A DNA stretch of 64,000 nt from Leptolyngbya sp. SIO1E4 (GTDB taxonomy: Bacteria > Cyanobacteriota > Cyanobacteriia > Phormidesmidales > Phormidesmidaceae), in assembly GCA_010672825.2 (NCBI GenBank), contig JAAHFU020000003.1, positions 372,001-436,000 of the forward strand, written 5' to 3'. A program made the position numbers and the translations under genes. The notes under the pieces are model-generated. The model was not told the DNA's origin. It saw only the letters and a list, made by a program, of their open reading frames with translations, and ran no database searches. Positions within the stretch are counted from its first letter, which is position 1. The number at the start of each line of letters is the position of its first letter. Of the stretch, positions 4,329-16,390 are shown one piece after another.

Positions 4329-6113
4329 CTAAAAAACAATCTCTAAATCCAATTCGCGAATATCAATGTGGTGAAGCTGTGGGGAATTCCCTTGATGGGT
4401 CGCTAGCCATAAAGAACAAGGCGGATGAAAAGAGATCGCAGTGGGCGGTGGTAAGTGATCTACTCGCCCAATGATCTGACCTTGAAAGTTCGCAATTTGT
4501 AGTTGCCCTGCCGCACTCACTCCAACCCGACCAATCACAAGTTCCCCTAACCAGTCAGCCGTAATTTCTAATCGACACCGCATCACTCGAAAAGGTTTGA
4601 GACTAATGACTAACAGATCCTTTTTGTGGGTACCGCTTTGGGCTAGGAATTGGTTCGGGTGCTGGCTACGGGCCAACAGGTGTAACGGGGCTTGTAGACT
4701 CAGGCGTCCCAGGCGTTTACCCCAGCGAGTGATCACTTGCAGGTGTGTTTCCTGACCTACCACATCAGCAATTAGAAAATGGCGATCGTCGAGATACAGG
4801 CCCCGCAAATCTCCCTGAGGCGTATCCACGGTGAATAAATGTGGGGTCGTTGGCACTGCCCCAAGAGAATCGACTAACCAGAAACGGGCGGGCGTCACGG
4901 CACTTTGCACCATGATCCAACGGTGATTGCCGGCTGCAACGCGGATGGGGTCAGTAAAGGTTGCAACCGGCAACAAAACGTGATCAGCAGCGAGGCGATA
5001 GAGGGCGTTATGGGTCACCGCAATCACCCCGTTGGGGCAATCGATCACCTGCTGTACTGGGGTCTCTAGCTGCCACTGTTGAATAGGCTGCTGCTCGGCA
5101 CAGGTACCGGCTGGAGTTAATGACCAGCCATAGACACTGTTGTCAACTGCGGTGAAGAGCATAGACGGTGCATCGCTGCCTACGGTTGAGAGACACACAG
5201 CCTGGCAAATGCCCGCTAAAGGAACGCTCATTTGCGGGTGAAAGTGGCTGACAGAACTGGTGATAATGGGCTTAGGGAAGCGCTCTCGCAGCTCTGCGGC
5301 CATCAGCGTCTGTCGCATAGACACAATGGCGGCCCTCATTTCTGAAGCGGTGTTGAAACGGCGAGCCATTAACTTTTCTAGCGCTTTGCACAACAGAGAC
5401 TGTACCCCCTGCGGCAGAGTATCTGGAATTTGGGCCGTATGGTTGAGATGAGCCACCATCAGTTGGGTATGGCTGCCAGAGAAGGGGCGATCGCCGACCA
5501 GCAACTCATACAAAATAATTCCTACGGCATAGAGATCCGAGGTTTCTGCATACTGATGATAAAACCGCTCTGGAGCCATATAAGCCGGTGAGCCCGTGGC
5601 ACCGGTATGCTCGCCCCTTAACTCTTGATTTAGGCGAGCAATTCCAAAATCAGAGACCTTCGCTTGCCACCCATTCGGAGTGAGCGAGAGCAAGATGTTT
5701 TCAGGCTTAATGTCGCAATGGACAATCCTTTGACTATGGGCATGTTCTAAGGCTGACAAGATATCTGTTACCAGCGTTAGAATCTCGGCCAGGGTGAGCT
5801 GAGTTTCCTGCTCCATAATGCTGCGGAGGGTGCCCCCTTCGCAGTAATCCAGCACTAGCTGTCGCCCTGTAGCTGACTGCTCTAAGGCATAGCAGTTAAC
5901 AATGTGAGGATGTTCAAGGCTGAGTAAAAAGCGAAGCTCTCGCAAAAAACGACGGGTGGTCAGGCGATCGCGATTGAGATGCTTCAGGGCCACTAACCGC
6001 GCCGCTTTATGATGGATAGCACAGTAGACCTGTCCAAACTGCCCTTGTCCAACCAGTCCTAATAGTCGATAGTTGGCAGATTGGAGTGGGCCTGATGAAG
6101 CAGTAGATGCCAC
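4329..6113 (-). CDS. Ser/Thr protein kinase with C-terminal propeller-like region (Pap-cluster kinase)
   Basis: A 594-residue Hanks-type kinase starting at GTG (6113). Glycine loop GQGQFG (22-27), ATP lysine in VALKH (Lys44), catalytic HCDIKPEN (Asp134, Asn139), DFG (155-157) and MAPE (179-182) are all present, so it should be active. HCD instead of HRD is a common bacterial variant. Residues from about 290 onward form a beta-rich region with repeated short blades, possibly a sensor propeller. No membrane segment is obvious. It begins 4 bp after the V4R gene at 6118-6774 and is last in the cluster, the same place as slr0152 in the Synechocystis Pap operon. Its substrate is unknown. Confidence 0.9.
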   Translation of the reverse strand: MASTASSGPLQSANYRLLGLVGQGQFGQVYCAIHHKAARLVALKHLNRDRLTTRRFLRELRFLLSLEHPHIVNCYALEQSATGRQLVLDYCEGGTLRSIMEQETQLTLAEILTLVTDILSALEHAHSQRIVHCDIKPENILLSLTPNGWQAKVSDFGIARLNQELRGEHTGATGSPAYMAPERFYHQYAETSDLYAVGIILYELLVGDRPFSGSHTQLMVAHLNHTAQIPDTLPQGVQSLLCKALEKLMARRFNTASEMRAAIVSMRQTLMAAELRERFPKPIITSSVSHFHPQMSVPLAGICQAVCLSTVGSDAPSMLFTAVDNSVYGWSLTPAGTCAEQQPIQQWQLETPVQQVIDCPNGVIAVTHNALYRLAADHVLLPVATFTDPIRVAAGNHRWIMVQSAVTPARFWLVDSLGAVPTTPHLFTVDTPQGDLRGLYLDDRHFLIADVVGQETHLQVITRWGKRLGRLSLQAPLHLLARSQHPNQFLAQSGTHKKDLLVISLKPFRVMRCRLEITADWLGELVIGRVGVSAAGQLQIANFQGQIIGRVDHLPPPTAISFHPPCSLWLATHQGNSPQLHHIDIRELDLEIVF

Positions 6114-6117
6114 AAGG

Positions 6118-6774
6118 TTATTGAGTCAGTATCTTCAGAATAGCGTCATGGGGCTTCCCTTCTTGGACCAATGCTTCAACGGACTGCAGACGGCTCTCTA
6201 GTCCCAATACAAAGCGATTACGATCAGCCCCAAGGGACTCACAGCTCGTTTGTACACAGGCCAAGTCACGCCCGGTCAATTGGCTAAAGAACACTTGCAA
6301 AACCCCAGACTCTAAGGCGCCAGAGGGCTGGTCAGGTTGAATCAGATGGGCCGTGAACGGGGAGTTCTGAACCTCAATCACGAGGAACCCCTGGTTATGA
6401 TAATCCGTATTCAAGTGCAAGTTGCCCCACCCATGAGTGCGCCAGCATTCTTGGAGCGCTTGCAAAAACTCTATCATTGAGAGGTCTGCGATCGACGTGT
6501 GGTGATATTTACTTAACTCCTCGCAGAAGCGAGCATAGAAGTTCTTCCCCCACCAGAGCCCGCAGCTCCGCAACACAAAGGGGGTAGCCTGCCCGGTTTC
6601 GTTGTTTAGCCCCAAAACAATCGCCTTCAGCAAAGCATCTGGGAGAGCTAGAAGACGACTCCCCTGACGGTTCTCTAAGATCCCTAGCTCAAGGATACCG
6701 CGTACGTACACGTCGTTCGCGAAGTAGTTACTGGGCAGGTGATCGTCGGTCAGGAGGTCAGCGATAGAAATCAT
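6118..6774 (-). CDS. V4R-like domain protein of the Pap-type cluster (slr0147-like)
   Basis: A 218-residue soluble protein. The middle (GQATPFVLRSCGLWWGKNF, WRTHGWGNLHLNTD, FLVIEVQNSPF, CVQTSCESLGADRNRFVLG) has the layout of V4R (4-vinyl reductase-like) domains, including the cysteine-containing strand before the C-terminus. It is paralogous in layout to the protein at 7695-8381. It sits 22 bp after the phycobiliprotein-like gene and 4 bp before the kinase, so co-transcription is likely. By context it corresponds to slr0147 of the photosystem II assembly operon. A ligand (tetrapyrrole or lipid) is plausible but inferred. Confidence 0.72.
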   Translation of the reverse strand: MISIADLLTDDHLPSNYFANDVYVRGILELGILENRQGSRLLALPDALLKAIVLGLNNETGQATPFVLRSCGLWWGKNFYARFCEELSKYHHTSIADLSMIEFLQALQECWRTHGWGNLHLNTDYHNQGFLVIEVQNSPFTAHLIQPDQPSGALESGVLQVFFSQLTGRDLACVQTSCESLGADRNRFVLGLESRLQSVEALVQEGKPHDAILKILTQ

Positions 6775-6796
6775 AAGTCATCCCTGCAAACACTAC

Positions 6797-7309
6797 TTAG
6801 AACAAACCCACTAAGGTCTCAGTGGTGACAGCGGCCTCCGCCTCCGCCTCCTGAAGAGATAACAAAGCCTGGGCAGTCTCTAGCCCGGGGAACAGTAAAG
6901 CTTTCTGCTTGGGGGCCAATCGGCTAGAAAGTTGCTGTTTCAGCAACTCGTACAAAGCTTCGTCAATCGGTTGGGTGCCATAGGCTTCGATGATATCTGG
7001 CAACCAGGGCTTTAATCGTTTGGTCATAAAGTCTGGGTCATCCATTAGCATCGCCATGGCGGCACAGCGGAGCACCAGAACGCCATTCTGCAAACTCCGC
7101 TCAAGATGGGCCTCAGAAGCTTGAGAAAACTGTTGCTGCAAGGTGTCTGCAACCGCTTGCATCAGGGCCAATTCATCATTGCGTAACCGGCGATAAAGGT
7201 TGATACGCTCAGGTAAAGAACTGACAAACTGACTCAGCACATTCAGCTCATCAGGTCGCAAATAGGCTTTTTCTGGCTCGTTAAAAAGCGCTTCCAGGTT
7301 CGGGTTCAT
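6797..7309 (-). CDS. Phycobiliprotein-fold protein without chromophore site (slr0146-like)
   Basis: A 170-residue, mostly helical protein with a divergent phycobilisome (globin-like) domain. The segment CAAMAMLMDDPDFMTKRLKPWLPDIIEAYG matches the helix E-F/G region of allophycocyanin-type subunits. The usual bilin cysteine context (MxxCLRD) is absent, so it probably does not carry a bilin. The C-terminus ends in TTETLVGLF, similar to the LDGFADLF end of the next protein upstream. It belongs to the Pap-type cluster, 71 bp downstream of the 105-residue gene. Probably an assembly or scaffold factor, not a light-harvesting subunit (inference). Confidence 0.75.
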   Translation of the reverse strand: MNPNLEALFNEPEKAYLRPDELNVLSQFVSSLPERINLYRRLRNDELALMQAVADTLQQQFSQASEAHLERSLQNGVLVLRCAAMAMLMDDPDFMTKRLKPWLPDIIEAYGTQPIDEALYELLKQQLSSRLAPKQKALLFPGLETAQALLSLQEAEAEAAVTTETLVGLF

Positions 7310-7380
7310 GGCGCAATCTCCACAGCGTGCTCATCTCAGGCATAGACCAGTATGCAAAGGCGCGAGGTCTCGCGTCTCCA

Positions 7381-7698
7381 CTAAAACAAATCGGCAAATC
7401 CGTCGAGGGTTAAATCATCCTCTGGCAGCGGCAAGTTAGGCTGAGCTTCTAGGGGGGCCATGGGTGCTGCAATGCTGGGTTTGCCATCCCAAGGAAATCG
7501 ATTAAAAAATTCACCGACGCTCAGCTGCATGTCAAGACCGTCAACAGAAATCACCTCTCCATCAGCAGGCTGGGTCCAAGGTTCTCGCACGGGTTCCCCG
7601 GTCCAAGCAATCGTGCTAAAAAACTCACGCACCGACAGGGTGTGCCAGGCATCTCGCTGAGGAGCATGGCCATTCGTTGCGGTCAGGGGGCTGCTCAT
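7381..7698 (-). CDS. Small protein with two SVxEFFxxxxWxGxP repeats (slr0145 position)
   Basis: A 105-residue protein, probably largely disordered. It carries two copies of a short motif: LSVREFFSTIAWTGEP around residues 21-36 and LSVGEFFNRFPWDGKP around residues 59-74. A related FxDFF stretch occurs in the V4R protein immediately upstream. The C-terminus is acidic then hydrophobic (LTLDGFADLF). Its ATG overlaps the stop of the V4R gene by 4 bp (ATGA), so the two are translationally coupled. No known domain recognised. The repeated aromatic motif looks like a protein-binding peptide (inference). Confidence 0.75.
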   Translation of the reverse strand: MSSPLTATNGHAPQRDAWHTLSVREFFSTIAWTGEPVREPWTQPADGEVISVDGLDMQLSVGEFFNRFPWDGKPSIAAPMAPLEAQPNLPLPEDDLTLDGFADLF

Positions 7699-8381
7699 GC
7701 GCCTCCCTCCCCAGCTCGCAGCCGTCGCTCAATGTCACGAGCAGTGGCGCCCTCATTCATCCAAAAGGCCGCAGCATCAATGCGCTCTTTGCCCCCTAGC
7801 AAAAACTTGCAGTAGGTTTCGCCCATGGAATAGCACTGAATTTCGATACAGCTCAGCTGCTTCCGAACCATTTCGGTGAAGAATCCTGCAAAGAGCCCCG
7901 CATAAATATGGCAAACGGGTTTACCAACATCCCCCAGGGTACGGGCCACCGCAGAATCAAACACGTTGATAAACATGAATCCCTGCTTGCGATCGCTCAT
8001 GTCCACTTCCCAACGCCCCCAACCTTGGGAGGTAAATGGCCACCACCAGGTTTCCAGGAGAAACATCAGATTAGCGTTGCGGGCGCTCATGCCAAATTCT
8101 TTCTCAAACCAGGTTTCGAAGAACAATGAGTCGTACTTGCCCCATTCCAAACCAATGGAGTACATGATGGTCGCAGAGGCTTCTCCAACCTCCTCTTCCA
8201 GGCCTTCCAGCAGGCCAATAATAAAGTCTTCGCTCGTAAATACGTTGCGACTGCCATTCCAATCAACCACGCTACCCGCATTCGGGTTGAACTGGAAAAA
8301 GTCCCGAAAACTATAGTGGTTATGCTTCTTGGGATAGCGATCGCGCAAATGATGAGAGGTGTTTACCAAAGATGTAGCCAT
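7695..8381 (-). CDS. V4R domain protein of the Pap-type cluster (slr0144-like)
   Basis: The start is ATG at 8381 (MATSLVNTSHHL), not the further-upstream frame start. It gives 228 residues and follows a GGGCGGGA purine stretch. The core GEASATIMYSIGLEWGKYDS, SQGWGRWEVDMSDRKQGFMFINVFDSAVA and the C-terminal IEIQCYSMGETYCKFLLGG match V4R domain proteins related to bacteriochlorophyll J-type and 4-vinyl reductase regulators. Cysteines in the last segment are typical of V4R. It overlaps the next gene by ATGA. In Synechocystis the equivalent gene opens an operon needed for efficient photosystem II assembly, and a similar role is likely here. Confidence 0.8.
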   Translation of the reverse strand: MATSLVNTSHHLRDRYPKKHNHYSFRDFFQFNPNAGSVVDWNGSRNVFTSEDFIIGLLEGLEEEVGEASATIMYSIGLEWGKYDSLFFETWFEKEFGMSARNANLMFLLETWWWPFTSQGWGRWEVDMSDRKQGFMFINVFDSAVARTLGDVGKPVCHIYAGLFAGFFTEMVRKQLSCIEIQCYSMGETYCKFLLGGKERIDAAAFWMNEGATARDIERRLRAGEGGA

Positions 8382-8567
8382 AAATGTCCCGCCCTGAGAG
8401 CTTGTCTTTATAATCTCAATACTTTTGAACAATTTTAGAACGCCAACGGCTCCCTGAAAGAGGGGCAGGCATCTTCTACGACAAGGCAACGAACGAGAAA
8501 TTGAGGGGAGGTTCTTTCCTCAAAAAAGATTGCCTGGGATGTCGTTAATCTGATAGATAATGTGCCC

Positions 8568-8655
8568 AACTAACCAGAAATCTCAACGAACATTCTTAGA
8601 AGTTGAGAAATTTTAATCTCGTTGTGGTTTGTCGCCCTATGTCAGGCGGCTTTTT
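8568..8655 (+). ncRNA. Candidate small RNA with two hairpins
   Basis: The plus strand shows a 7-bp perfect hairpin (8581-8608, TCTCAAC/GTTGAGA). A single-stranded linker follows, then a second hairpin (8631-8650, GTCGCC/GGCGGC with one wobble pair) followed directly by TTTTT (8651-8655), which looks like a Rho-independent terminator. A possible promoter lies upstream: TTGCCT at 8530 and GATAAT at 8556, spacing slightly long. All neighbouring genes run on the other strand, so this terminator serves no annotated gene. Sequence alone cannot prove transcription. Confidence 0.3.
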
Positions 8656-8703
8656 GCGGTGCTGATCGAGGACTCAGGCTGATATTAAAGCAGTTACTTT
8701 GAG

Positions 8704-9183
8704 CTAGTACTCAGTATTGCCTAAAATAGTTCGGCTCATTTCTAAGAACGGGCAAAACAGCTCAGCCTCTTCAGGCGTCAGCGCTTGCTTTACAACCGCT
8801 TGCATGACCTTATAGGTCTCTTGACAGCTCCGCTCAGCTTTAAACGATTTCATGATGGTTTGGAACCAGATCAGCATTCTGTCTTTAAAGACATCGGGAT
8901 CGTCGGTCAAAAGCGTGATTGCGGCGTACCGCAAAACACGAATGGTATCGCGCTGCCATTTAGCCGTCATATCGACACCACCAGCAACCAACAGGTCAGG
9001 GTGCGCCTGCTTAAGCTGCATCAATACTGCTTGAACCAGCTTGGGTTCCAATTTTTGAATCTTTTGATACAGCGAAAAGCGCAATCGTGCTGTCTTTAAA
9101 TAATCCTGGAAGAACATTAATTCAGCATCTGTGGCGTATCTTCCCTCTGTGTTTACACAGAGCTGCTCCAGTTGTTGTAGCAT
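8704..9183 (-). CDS. Phycobiliprotein-fold protein (allophycocyanin-like, no bilin cysteine)
   Basis: A 159-residue helical protein. The segment LRYAAITLLTDDPDVFKDRMLIWFQTIMKSF corresponds to the helix E-G part of phycobilisome subunits (compare the LLxDDxDxFxxRxLxW pattern). Cysteines are at unusual places and no MxxCLRD-type chromophore site is seen. It is a distant paralogue of the protein at 6797-7309. It lies upstream of the Pap-type cluster on the same strand but 322 bp away, so it may have its own promoter. Role unknown; an association with phycobilisome or photosystem II assembly is suggested by context only. Confidence 0.68.
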   Translation of the reverse strand: MLQQLEQLCVNTEGRYATDAELMFFQDYLKTARLRFSLYQKIQKLEPKLVQAVLMQLKQAHPDLLVAGGVDMTAKWQRDTIRVLRYAAITLLTDDPDVFKDRMLIWFQTIMKSFKAERSCQETYKVMQAVVKQALTPEEAELFCPFLEMSRTILGNTEY

Positions 9184-9304
9184 GTCGTCGGGCCTAAGAA
9201 GGTAGCTGCGGAATACATGACAATTGTGGGTTCAGTGTGCCCGTTGTTGAAGCTGAGTTTACATTTTTTGGCAAATGATAATCGATGGCAGGCCTTTTTC
9301 TCTT

Positions 9305-10258
9305 CTAAGCATCACCAGGGCCTCGGGTTCCTGCAGCTAATTGTAAAATCATGGGATGACCATCATCTTGGTGATATTTATCGGCCCAAGCTTGCAATAG
9401 GGAGTCTAACTCTTCTAGCGCTTCATCTTTGCGCTCCCTATCAACATCAAAAACTTCTAGCGCCCGGAACACATCGGGTTTTTCAACCACCCAGCCCTGC
9501 ATGAGCTTACAGAACCGAGAGACATCATCAATCATGGTGAAAACGCGTTCTCGCTCTCCCTTAGGGGCGTAGTGATTACGGGCCAGCGCAAAAATTGGAA
9601 TTGAAAGAAATGGAATATCAACCTGAATGACTGTGCCGGAGTGCAGGAGCCGGAACTTGATGTGTTCTGTCAGGGCTTCGCTGAGCACCATTCGCCGATT
9701 AGGGAGAGATTCCGCTTGAGATTTTGTGTGTAAAAGCTTGATCAGATCCAGAAATTCAAAAATATCGAGTAAGCGGGCAGGGGGGGTATCTGCAGGCAGC
9801 TGAGCTTCGAGACTTTCTTGCTCTTTGGGCGTTAGATTATGGCCTTGTAGACGAGGTTTGCCGGGTTCCCAGGGGTATTTCTCTTGCCACAAATAGGGAA
9901 TACCGATGAGGTAGTAGGGTTCTTGATCACTCAAGGTTGTCAGAGATCGCCCCTCTGCCAGAACCGCATCGACTTCCTTAATAATTGCCCGCACCCGCTT
10001 AGGTTCTACATGATGTAAGAAACTGGTTTTGCGGATATTTTTACCTTGTTCTAAATAAGACGAGTAGATAGCAAATTTTGCCGCTGTGGTCGCAGCATCA
10101 AGAAAGGCACCATAGCGGTGCCCACCCAACTTCATGACACTGACTGCCAGATAGATAAGAATGCGATCTGCCGAACTTACTTTGAGACTCGCAAGCATCT
10201 GGTCATTAGCAGCATCAAAGGCGTAAGGTTCCTGTGAGGATTCAGCGGGTTTCGTCAC
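9305..10258 (-). CDS. Conserved-looking hypothetical protein, 317 aa
   Basis: The frame begins with GTG at 10258 (MTKPAESS). No family recognised. The protein is soluble, with a helical N-terminal third (residues 20-110). A middle segment contains YYLIGIPYLWQEKYPWEP and a proline-rich loop. A C-terminal half includes VIQVDIPFLSIPIFALARNHYAPKG. There is no signal peptide or membrane helix. It runs in the same direction as the phycobiliprotein-like gene 121 bp downstream, so it may belong to the same transcriptional neighbourhood. Codon use and composition look like its neighbours. Confidence 0.6.
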   Translation of the reverse strand: MTKPAESSQEPYAFDAANDQMLASLKVSSADRILIYLAVSVMKLGGHRYGAFLDAATTAAKFAIYSSYLEQGKNIRKTSFLHHVEPKRVRAIIKEVDAVLAEGRSLTTLSDQEPYYLIGIPYLWQEKYPWEPGKPRLQGHNLTPKEQESLEAQLPADTPPARLLDIFEFLDLIKLLHTKSQAESLPNRRMVLSEALTEHIKFRLLHSGTVIQVDIPFLSIPIFALARNHYAPKGERERVFTMIDDVSRFCKLMQGWVVEKPDVFRALEVFDVDRERKDEALEELDSLLQAWADKYHQDDGHPMILQLAAGTRGPGDA

Positions 10259-13621: not shown

Positions 13622-14719
13622 TTAACTCACGGATGTTGGTGCAGCTATGGTTGAGGGAACGATTTCACCCGCTGCCAGATCAAGCGGGAAGTTGTGAGCA
13701 TTACGCTCATGCATCACTTCCATGCCTAGGTTGGCGCGGTTGATCACGTCAGCCCAGGTGGCAATCACACGACCCTGGGCATCTAGAACGGACTGGTTAA
13801 AGTTGAATCCGTTCAGGTTGAACGCCATGGTGCTGATGCCCAGAGCAGTGAACCAGATGCCGATCACCGGCCACGCGGCCAACAAGAAGTGGAGAGACCG
13901 ACTGTTGGCTTGGGTGCCCAGCACCACCTCATTCATGCGCCCGATCAAACGACCAAAGTAACCGTGGGCGGCCACGATGTTGTAGGTCTCTTCTTCTTGG
14001 CCGAACTTGTAACCATAGTTCTGAGACTCGTTCTCGGTGGTCTCACGCACCAGGGTAGAAGTCACCAAAGAGCCATGCATGGCACTAAATAGCGCCCCAC
14101 CAAACACCCCGGCAACCCCCAGCATATGAAAGGGGTGCATCAGAATGTTGTGCTCTGCCTGGAACACCAACATGAAGTTGAAGGTGCCGGAGATGCCCAG
14201 CGGCATGCCGTCAGAGAAGGAACCCTGACCCAAGGGATAGATCAAGAACACAGCAGAAGCTGCTGCCACGGGGGCGGAGTATGCGACACAGATCCAAGGA
14301 CGCATGCCGAGACGGTAGGAAAGCTCCCACTCACGACCCATGTAGCAGAAGACGCCAACCAGGAAGTGGAAGATCACGAACTGGTAGGGACCACCGTTGT
14401 ACAACCACTCATCGAGGGAAGCGGCTTCCCAGATGGGGTAGAAGTGCAGACCAATGGCGTTGGAGGAAGGCACAACGGCACCGGAGATGATGTTGTTGCC
14501 GTACATCAAGGAGCCTGCAACGGGCTCACGGATGCCGTCGATGTCGACGGGGGGAGCTGCTACGAAAGCAATCACGTAGCAAGCAGTGGCTGCCAGCAGG
14601 GTGGGGATCATCAGCACGCCGAACCAGCCGATGTAGAGGCGGTTTTCGGTGCTGGTCACCCACTGACAAAACTGCTCCCACAGGGTGGCGCTTTCGCGCA
14701 TCTGTAGAGTTGTGGTCAT
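13622..14719 (-). CDS. psbA: Photosystem II D1 protein variant with replaced QB-pocket segment
   Basis: 365 residues against the usual 360. All Mn-cluster ligands are kept (Asp170, Glu189, and His, Glu, His, Asp and the mature C-terminal Ala in [15 protein letters not shown]). Tyr161, His190, His198 and His215 are kept, as is the iron ligand His272 (here His277). Position 130 is Glu, as in high-light D1 forms. After Ile259 the near-invariant FQYASFNN (260-267) is replaced by [13 protein letters not shown] (13904-13942), then SRSLHF resumes. Ser264, Phe265 and Tyr262 are therefore lost and five residues gained, in frame. A 16-residue processed tail is present. The gene is divergent from a TetR gene, with palindromic operators in its promoter region. 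Not a rogue D1 or chlorophyll f synthase, since the Mn ligands are intact. Confidence 0.95.
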
Positions 14720-14761
14720 ATGTCTGAATAAAGAAAAGAGACAAAATAGGGCTGTTTAACT

Positions 14762-14794
14762 AACTAACTTGTTAATTAAACTAACTTGTTAGTT
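14762..14794. promoter_or_regulatory. Paired palindromic operators in the psbA-tetR intergenic region
   Basis: Two 16-bp inverted repeats lie 17 bp apart, start to start. The right one (14779-14794) is AACTAAC-TT-GTTAGTT with perfect 7-bp arms. The left (14762-14777) is AACTAAC-TT-GTTAATT with one mismatch. An extra overlapping half-site (GTTAGTTAGTT) lies at 14838-14848. The pair is about 45-60 bp upstream of the psbA start codon and would overlap its promoter. The arrangement suits cooperative binding of two TetR dimers and probably controls both divergent genes. Confidence 0.7.
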
Positions 14795-14891
14795 AACCTA
14801 GAACATGGCCTTGGGTTTGTCAACAACTTTTTAACCAGTTAGTTAGTTTGCGAAGATCGGCTATCATTGGCCGAACAAGGCGCGCCGTATC

Positions 14892-15584
14892 ATGGATATG
14901 GAGAAGCCTTGTATGGAACCCGTAGTGAAGTCATCCGCCAAATCAAAGCGATCGCCATCCACCCGATCAAGCCGCGACCCAGAAGCCACCAAAGCGCAAA
15001 TTCTAGATGCGGCAGAAGAGGAGTTTGCCCGATACGGGTTAGCCGGTGCCCGCACAGAGCCGATCGCGGCCAAGACAGGGGTGACGAAAGCGATGATTCA
15101 CTACTATTTCGGCACGAAGGAGGAACTATACCAGGCGGTTCTGAAGCGTTATTCTGCCTCTTTTCTGACGGCAGTTGAGACGCTGGATGTCAAAAATTTA
15201 TCTTCCGAAGAAGCCTTAAAAACGTTTCTGAGAGCGGCGGTTGCCCACGAAATCACCCATCCTTATCAGGGAAAGGTTCTGCTCCATGAAGCAATGAACA
15301 ACGAGGGAAAATATTTCAAGCTCACAGGGTGGGAAGGGCCTATTAACCTAGGAATGGAAGCTCTGCAAAGGGGCATTGATGAGGGATGTTTCCGTCCGTT
15401 AGATCCCTGGTTGACGATGATCCACATCATGGGCGTGATTACCTTCTACTTCAACGCAGAAAATAACCTCAAACACGTTGTCCCCACCCACGAGTTTCGC
15501 AGCCCCGAGTCAATTGAAGCCTATACAGAATCTGCGATCGCCTTCGTGTTAGCAGGTGTCTTGAAGCATACAACACCTTGCTAA
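14892..15584 (+). CDS. TetR/AcrR family regulator, divergent from psbA
   Basis: A 230-residue protein. A basic N-terminal extension (residues 1-30) precedes the TetR DNA-binding domain: AQILDAAEEEFARYG, GARTEPIAAKTGVTKAMIHYYFGTKEELY (about residues 37-80). The rest is a helical ligand-binding and dimer domain with a hydrophobic end (MIHIMGVITFYFN). It is divergent from psbA across 172 bp holding palindromic operators. Autoregulation and control of psbA are likely by arrangement. The ligand is unknown. Short half-sites recur right at its stop codon, ahead of the LysE-type gene. Confidence 0.92.
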   Translation: MDMEKPCMEPVVKSSAKSKRSPSTRSSRDPEATKAQILDAAEEEFARYGLAGARTEPIAAKTGVTKAMIHYYFGTKEELYQAVLKRYSASFLTAVETLDVKNLSSEEALKTFLRAAVAHEITHPYQGKVLLHEAMNNEGKYFKLTGWEGPINLGMEALQRGIDEGCFRPLDPWLTMIHIMGVITFYFNAENNLKHVVPTHEFRSPESIEAYTESAIAFVLAGVLKHTTPC

Positions 15585-15751: not shown

Positions 15752-16390
15752 ATGCCTGATTTTTCAGTGATTGTCCTTTTTCTAACTGCGACAGGCGCAC
15801 TATTGCTAATACCAGGGCCGGTGGTCATGTACACCGTTGCTCGCAGCTTACATCAAGGCAGACAGGCCGGGTTTGTCTCAACATTAGCCGTTGGGCTTGG
15901 AGATTTCTCCCATGTGTTGGCCGCAGCGCTGGGGCTCTCAGCACTCTTAGCGTCTTCTGCCCTTGCATTTACTGTGGTGAAGTATGCAGGTGCTGCCTAT
16001 CTTATCTATCTTGGGATTCGCACATGGTTATCGCCAGATGAAGCTCCCAGTCTGACGCCCAAAAATTCAACCAGGCTGAGTCGTGTTTTCTTTCAAGGTC
16101 TTTGGGTCAGTATTTTGAACCCTAAAACAGCCTTATTTTTTCTGGCGTTCTTTCCCCAATTTGTCACCCCTGATAAAGGAGCTGTCTCTGTACAAATCAT
16201 CTTTTTAGGCTGCCTCTTTGTGGGGATGGGGTTCTGCACAAATACGGCCTACGTCCTTGCGGCAAGTGGGCTGGGGCAGTTTCTCAGAAGCAATCTGCGG
16301 TTTCTCCGAGCCCAACGGTACTTCACAGGAGGGGTCTATGTATCGCTGGGGCTCACTACAGCGCTAACAGGTTCAAACAATAGCGAATAG
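15752..16390 (+). CDS. LysE/RhtB family exporter
   Basis: A 212-residue inner-membrane protein with about six hydrophobic segments. Family marks: LLIPGPVVMYTVARSLHQGRQAGFVSTLAVGLGD near the N-terminus, AAYLIYLGIRTW in the middle, and GLWVSILNPKTALFFLAFFPQFV, the conserved 'NPK' motif. Members export amino acids, homoserine lactones or other small metabolites; the substrate cannot be told from sequence. It lies 167 bp downstream of the psbA-linked TetR gene in the same direction, so a functional link is possible but unproven. Confidence 0.92.
   Translation: MPDFSVIVLFLTATGALLLIPGPVVMYTVARSLHQGRQAGFVSTLAVGLGDFSHVLAAALGLSALLASSALAFTVVKYAGAAYLIYLGIRTWLSPDEAPSLTPKNSTRLSRVFFQGLWVSILNPKTALFFLAFFPQFVTPDKGAVSVQIIFLGCLFVGMGFCTNTAYVLAASGLGQFLRSNLRFLRAQRYFTGGVYVSLGLTTALTGSNNSE

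Follow-up and report, generated by a model that had tools for sequence, protein, structure and literature searches.

A TetR-linked psbA gene with a replaced QB loop in Leptolyngbya sp. SIO1E4: a candidate switch to an altered photosystem II

D1 is a core protein of photosystem II (PSII), and the loop with which it grips its quinone is the target of many herbicides. Few photosynthesis genes are as well studied or as highly conserved as psbA, the gene for D1, and its known control is by light, redox, oxygen and far-red light. In the 64,000-nucleotide stretch of Leptolyngbya sp. SIO1E4 DNA analyzed here (the window), a psbA gene encoding a D1 variant of 365 residues (13622–14719, minus strand) lies back to back with a gene for a TetR-type repressor of 230 residues (14892–15584, plus strand; an alternative in-frame ATG is possible at 14913). 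The divergent arrangement of the two genes across a gap of 172 bp (14720–14891) had been described in a first-pass annotation made from the sequence alone, and both the coordinates and the profile matches agree with that description.

The D1 variant and its replaced QB loop

The window D1 scores 759 bits with TIGR01151, for which the curated cutoff is 596, and also matches PF00124; by this measure it is a standard D1. However, alignment to the canonical D1 copies of the same genome, the closest of which are 95% identical to it, and to a solved D1 shows that a loop of 12 residues (codons at 13907–13942, minus strand) takes the place of the segment FQYASFN (F260–N266), which contains S264 and F265; the exchange makes the protein five residues longer, and the new loop is conserved in relatives. 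The altered QB pocket noticed in the first-pass annotation is thus an exchanged and lengthened loop. In the D1 alignment, where residue numbering shifts by +5 after the loop, the Mn4CaO5 ligands D170, E189, H332, E333, H337, D342 and A344 are invariant, as are the iron ligands H215 and H272 and the chlorophyll ligands. The AlphaFold2 model of loop-D1 gave a pLDDT of 36 and no usable fold. S264 and F265 supply two hydrogen bonds to QB (PMC12096807). In Chlamydomonas, the S264K mutation confers triazine resistance and lowers oxygen evolution to about 40% (PMC6170454), which indicates that tolerance comes at a cost.

The window genome contains eight D1-like genes, some of which are just 56–78% identical to the window D1. 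Judged by identity only, the divergent copies among the loci L004–L008 are probably far-red-, rogue- or ChlF-like, so that the strain may be capable of far-red acclimation. Standard D1 copies were also kept in all nine loop-D1 genomes checked, as expected for a conditional isoform. In a tree calculated without the loop columns, the window D1 joins the standard psbA copies of its own genome (99/98), apart from the other loop-D1 proteins, and in this tree, which was built without a reference G0–G3 set, its body does not group outside standard D1, as would be expected of the atypical D1 groups (G0–G3, far-red, INT). The nucleotide identity to the resident standard psbA, determined in windows of 30 codons, is 97–100% over codons 1–180 (89–93% in the first window) and only 73–90% beyond codon 180. 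Together with the tree, this change in identity shows that gene conversion by a resident psbA overwrote the first half of the variant gene, at its 5′ end (540 nt; 14180–14719, minus strand), and that the tract ended before the loop.

The loop, GRTNE[IV][ILV]LGxxAN, is present in 24 genes from 23 cyanobacterial species. Its amino acids are conserved across these 23 species while its codons vary freely, with many synonymous changes; the G, R, N and E positions were preset by the search pattern in one of the two conservation comparisons and free in the other. These observations bear on the reading of the loop as a degenerate relic in a non-functional D1. The residues replaced are invariant among standard D1 copies, as would be seen if function had been lost, but conservation of the loop under so much synonymous change, retention of the cofactor ligands and survival of the loop through gene conversion make a relic barely credible.

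Operators in the psbA promoter

Phylogenetic footprinting revealed the palindrome AACTAACNNGTTAGTT at fixed promoter positions in the TetR-linked loci. In the window, the operator O1 (14779–14794) is the perfect palindrome AACTAACTTGTTAGTT, located directly 3′ of the psbA −10 element and over the expected start site. An extra operator, O1b (14762–14777), reads AACTAACTTGTTAATT with one mismatch and lies 17 bp downstream of O1, start to start; the same spacing is found in the clade of closest relatives (L012–L017). These are the two 16-bp palindromes 17 bp apart of the first-pass annotation. The half-site reported with them, at 14829–14848, is a real element, although it is better described as a degenerate second operator, O2 (14829–14844; 11 of 14 positions matching), which is perfect in many, indeed most, relatives, degenerate in some, and without a recognizable counterpart at one locus (G093). 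O2 is located just upstream of the −35 element and 50 bp, or about five helical turns, upstream of O1, a distance kept in nearly all TetR-linked loci.

The −35 element TTGACA (14818–14823, minus strand) is present in all 19 TetR-linked psbA promoters compared, where it is followed by a 17-nt spacer (18 nt in two), a −10 element that is mostly TAAATT or TAAGCT, and then at once by O1. The −10 element of the window gene, TAGGTT (14795–14800, minus strand), also abuts O1 and is weak in itself, which is why a generic promoter scan gave no psbA promoter in the window; the promoter was assigned by footprinting. The promoter of the predicted target is thus overlapped by conserved palindromic operators, as expected for a TetR repressor.

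The palindrome is rare. With up to two mismatches it was matched twice in the 64-kb window, where 0.08 matches are expected by chance, and the perfect form occurs once in the 8.2-Mb genome, in the psbA–tetR gap. The sole one-mismatch copy elsewhere in the genome (C3:456547–456562, locus L045) lies between tandem genes for secreted-looking proteins. Within the family of the window genome, 11 of 65 genomes contain the perfect operator, every site being inside a gap between tetR and a loop-type psbA, and none of the 51 family genomes without loop-D1 contains it; this strong association is given as raw genome counts, in which kinship is ignored. No operator was found at standard psbA copies. The confinement of perfect sites to these gaps indicates that TetR is a putative single-target regulator.

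The position of the operators also bears on the possibility that the adjacency is fortuitous, with psbA under its usual light control and the palindromes merely autoregulating tetR. TetR proteins are often autorepressors; the iron-related PfsR of Synechocystis, for example, is autoregulated and, among the promoters tested, bound only its own (PMC4092027). However, O1 abuts the psbA −10 element in register across the compared loci, the gene pair is retained though the remaining gene neighborhoods differ among loop-D1 loci, and the standard psbA copies have no operator, so that a fortuitous pairing is very improbable indeed.

Distribution and candidate regulators of loop-D1

A candidate regulator gene lies divergently beside each of the 24 loop-D1 genes, a set merged from the TetR-side and loop-side searches: a TetR gene at 19 and a gene for a STAND ATPase (NB-ARC–WD40) at five. 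At one of the TetR-linked loci (L017), psbA is truncated by the contig end, and this locus was included on the basis of its TetR and the remaining part of psbA. The co-occurrence of TetR with this D1 in other genomes, on which the first-pass annotation had staked its proposal, thus holds for 19 of the 24 genes and fails in five distant species, which have the STAND-type gene instead. In the family of the window genome, TetR adjoins every one of the 16 loop-D1 genes. The TetR orthologs are 52–79% identical within this family and 44% identical in another family, and each is divergent from psbA. The TetR-side search made no selection for the loop, and wherever the adjoining psbA is complete, it carries GRTNE[IV][IL]LGxxANSR. 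The sole exception is a stop-interrupted tetR with no psbA beside it (L034, in G048), which is probably a decaying duplicate. When 84,980 species were scanned with a codon pattern, the loop was detected in 18 cyanobacterial species, plus two chance matches (L056 and L070), and in 14 of the 65 genomes of the window's family; a narrower pattern, R-M-N-E, matched the window genome alone. The carriers include Leptolyngbya PCC 7375, PCC 6406 and Nodosilinea. Neither the loop nor this TetR is present in the viral contigs searched, and phage psbA genes match at only 60–90%.

Apart from the regulator, no neighboring gene is conserved across the loop-D1 loci compared, and these contexts showed no gene for biosynthesis, efflux or degradation that consistently accompanies the pair. 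A gene for a LysE/RhtB-type exporter lies directly 3′ of tetR on the same strand (15752–16390) in the window genome only; it was rejected as a component of the system since the other loci have no LysE gene, and it could have been added to the TetR regulon locally. Elsewhere in the window (4329–10258, minus strand), genes for a Ser/Thr kinase-like protein, two V4R-domain proteins, a phycobilisome-domain protein and a HetR-like protein (Peptidase_S48/HetR_C) are clustered.

Antibiotic producers are known to carry inducible resistant copies of a drug target, such as the novobiocin-resistant GyrB. By this strategy, the host or an ancestor would produce a compound that inhibits PSII, and loop-D1 together with TetR would be a self-resistance gene that has become detached. 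The absence of conserved biosynthetic genes beside the pair speaks against this origin, which we regard as very unlikely.

The five STAND-linked genes are from Leptolyngbya FACHB-8, Coleofasciculus S288, a Chroococcidiopsidaceae MAG, Pleurocapsales LEGE 06147 and Phormidium tenue FACHB-886. The divergent protein at these loci (L053, L062, L063, L064 and L069) has about 1210 residues and consists of an NB-ARC/NACHT ATPase and WD40 repeats. Before the WD40 part, the five proteins are 52–66% identical among themselves, while paralogs from five other genomes do not exceed 55%. A WD40 reading frame at a further locus (L055) was rejected as a STAND gene because it encodes a WD40 protein only. TTGACA and the TetR operator are absent from the five STAND-linked psbA promoters, which contain TAACTTTT-like direct repeats, several of them spaced about 10–11 bp. 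The N-terminus of the STAND proteins gave no family match in profile searches, and for this reason a DNA-binding role is only inferred, as is their regulatory role. The STAND protein is possibly a second, independent sensor for loop-D1.

The TetR protein of the window contains a TetR_N helix-turn-helix domain (PF00440, E = 2.4e-13) and a TetR C-terminal domain (PF14514, E = 1.7e-7), and its AlphaFold2 model (pLDDT 86) has the TetR fold. Foldseek gave generic TetR matches only, RutR, FrrA and PhlH among them, and the top ones are 21–24% identical. The best relatives that are not linked to D1 (37–48% identical), with annotated examples on Acaryochloris and Nostoc plasmids, are mostly divergent from genes for FAD monooxygenases, Rieske oxygenases or UGT/EryCIII-type glycosyltransferases (L026, L028, L030, L031 and L035–L041). 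From these neighbors, the cyanobacterial TetR subfamily appears to control enzymes that modify or detoxify small, probably aromatic, molecules, pointing to a chemical-sensing family.

The main alternative is that the switch is real but physiological: TetR would sense an endogenous metabolite, such as a quinone precursor, a fatty acid or a redox-active phenolic, and loop-D1 would retune or slow QB reduction in a particular state. Cyanobacteria deploy D1 isoforms for particular conditions, for example low oxygen and far-red light (PMC12096807), the host already has other specialized D1-like copies, and the compared loci include no linked detoxification gene. However, the donor side of loop-D1 is untouched and the change is essentially confined to the inhibitor/QB loop, whereas the nearest specialized D1 copy (L005) retains QYASF. 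In addition, the oxygenases and glycosyltransferases beside the TetR paralogs are of the kinds that typically act on aromatic compounds of foreign or secondary origin. A physiological switch, in which an endogenous signal retunes QB, is thus considered unlikely, while carrying appreciable weight.

The proposed switch and known systems

In the switch that we propose, a TetR dimer would bind, when the ligand is absent, to O1, over the start site and the edge of the −10 element, and to O2, beside the −35 element, and the variant psbA would be off. Binding to O2 would probably also cover the tetR promoter, and O2 may serve tetR autorepression. Loop-D1 would be kept off under these circumstances because slower electron transfer is the expected price of its altered QB loop. 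A small molecule would free TetR, RNA polymerase would transcribe the loop-D1 gene, and loop-D1, with the water-oxidizing and pigment-binding apparatus whole and the QB/herbicide loop rebuilt without S264 and F265, would take over from standard D1 in normal D1 turnover. The resulting PSII would tolerate this molecule, or a similar one, that inhibits standard D1 at its QB site. In the distant species, the STAND-type ATPase lies beside loop-D1 in place of TetR.

The individual steps differ in strength. The architecture of the locus, as read from the DNA, strongly suggests that TetR represses the loop-variant psbA, and this regulatory half of the first-pass annotation has strong comparative support from the divergent regulator at every loop-D1 gene and the conserved, essentially single-target operators. 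Induction by a small molecule is suggested with moderate confidence. More tentatively, the inducing molecule may be one that blocks the standard QB site and is tolerated by loop-D1. The functional half of the first-pass annotation, an inducible, inhibitor-tolerant D1 triggered by a PSII inhibitor, a herbicide or a quinone, would fit the replacement of S264 and F265, the kept water-oxidation ligands and the detoxification-type neighbors of the TetR paralogs. A two-gene, single-target inducible switch to a QB-altered D1, probably for tolerance of a natural PSII inhibitor, is therefore a reading to which we give slightly better than even chances.

No description of this D1 loop class or of TetR control of psbA was found in the openly accessible literature, and a survey of the structural diversity of D1 from 2025, in its treatment of DE-loop variation, does not describe the loop-D1 class (PMC12096807). 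The loop is apparently undescribed, and its regulator is unusual among regulated D1 isoforms. If the proposal is true, natural QB-site inhibitors select strongly enough to maintain a spare reaction-centre core, and the pair offers a ready PSII-inhibitor biosensor and a natural form of inhibitor-tolerant PSII. Loop-D1 would also probe how much change in the QB loop is compatible with working electron transfer. The widest reading, in which an undescribed D1 class forms a chemically induced, tolerant PSII and has recruited a dedicated sensor at least twice (TetR and STAND) in a setting of chemical warfare and defence at the QB site, has in our judgment a little less than an even chance.

Compared with standard (G4) D1, the window D1 likewise exceeds the TIGR01151 cutoff, is about 90–95% identical to the standard copies of its own genome, and has the ligands of the Mn cluster, non-haem iron and chlorophylls, Y161 and the C-terminal processing region. 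Standard D1 has F260–N266, whereas the window D1 has the conserved 12-residue loop together with a dedicated TetR and operators. Loss of S264 is common to loop-D1 and herbicide-resistant D1 mutants such as S264K, and loss of triazine binding at a cost in QB kinetics is expected; these mutants carry point changes, whereas loop-D1 is a natural variant with a conserved loop, encoded by a gene apart that has a regulator to itself. The low-oxygen D1′ (G3), far-red D1, D1-INT, rogue (G2) and ChlF (G1) proteins are, like loop-D1, extra psbA paralogs for special conditions. However, these isoforms are set apart by overall phylogeny, whereas loop-D1 combines a standard body with a new acceptor-side loop, and the D1-like copies L005–L008 in the same genome are genes separate from it. 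The repressors of the RutR, TtgR and AcrR type share with the window TetR the TetR_N domain, an all-helical ligand domain, a divergent target and palindromic operators, whereas the predicted target here is a photosystem core gene. Finally, resistant copies of the GyrB type follow a common logic with loop-D1, that of a repressible spare copy of a drug target that is resistant; the target and the regulator are different, and for loop-D1 the drug and the induction are those proposed above.
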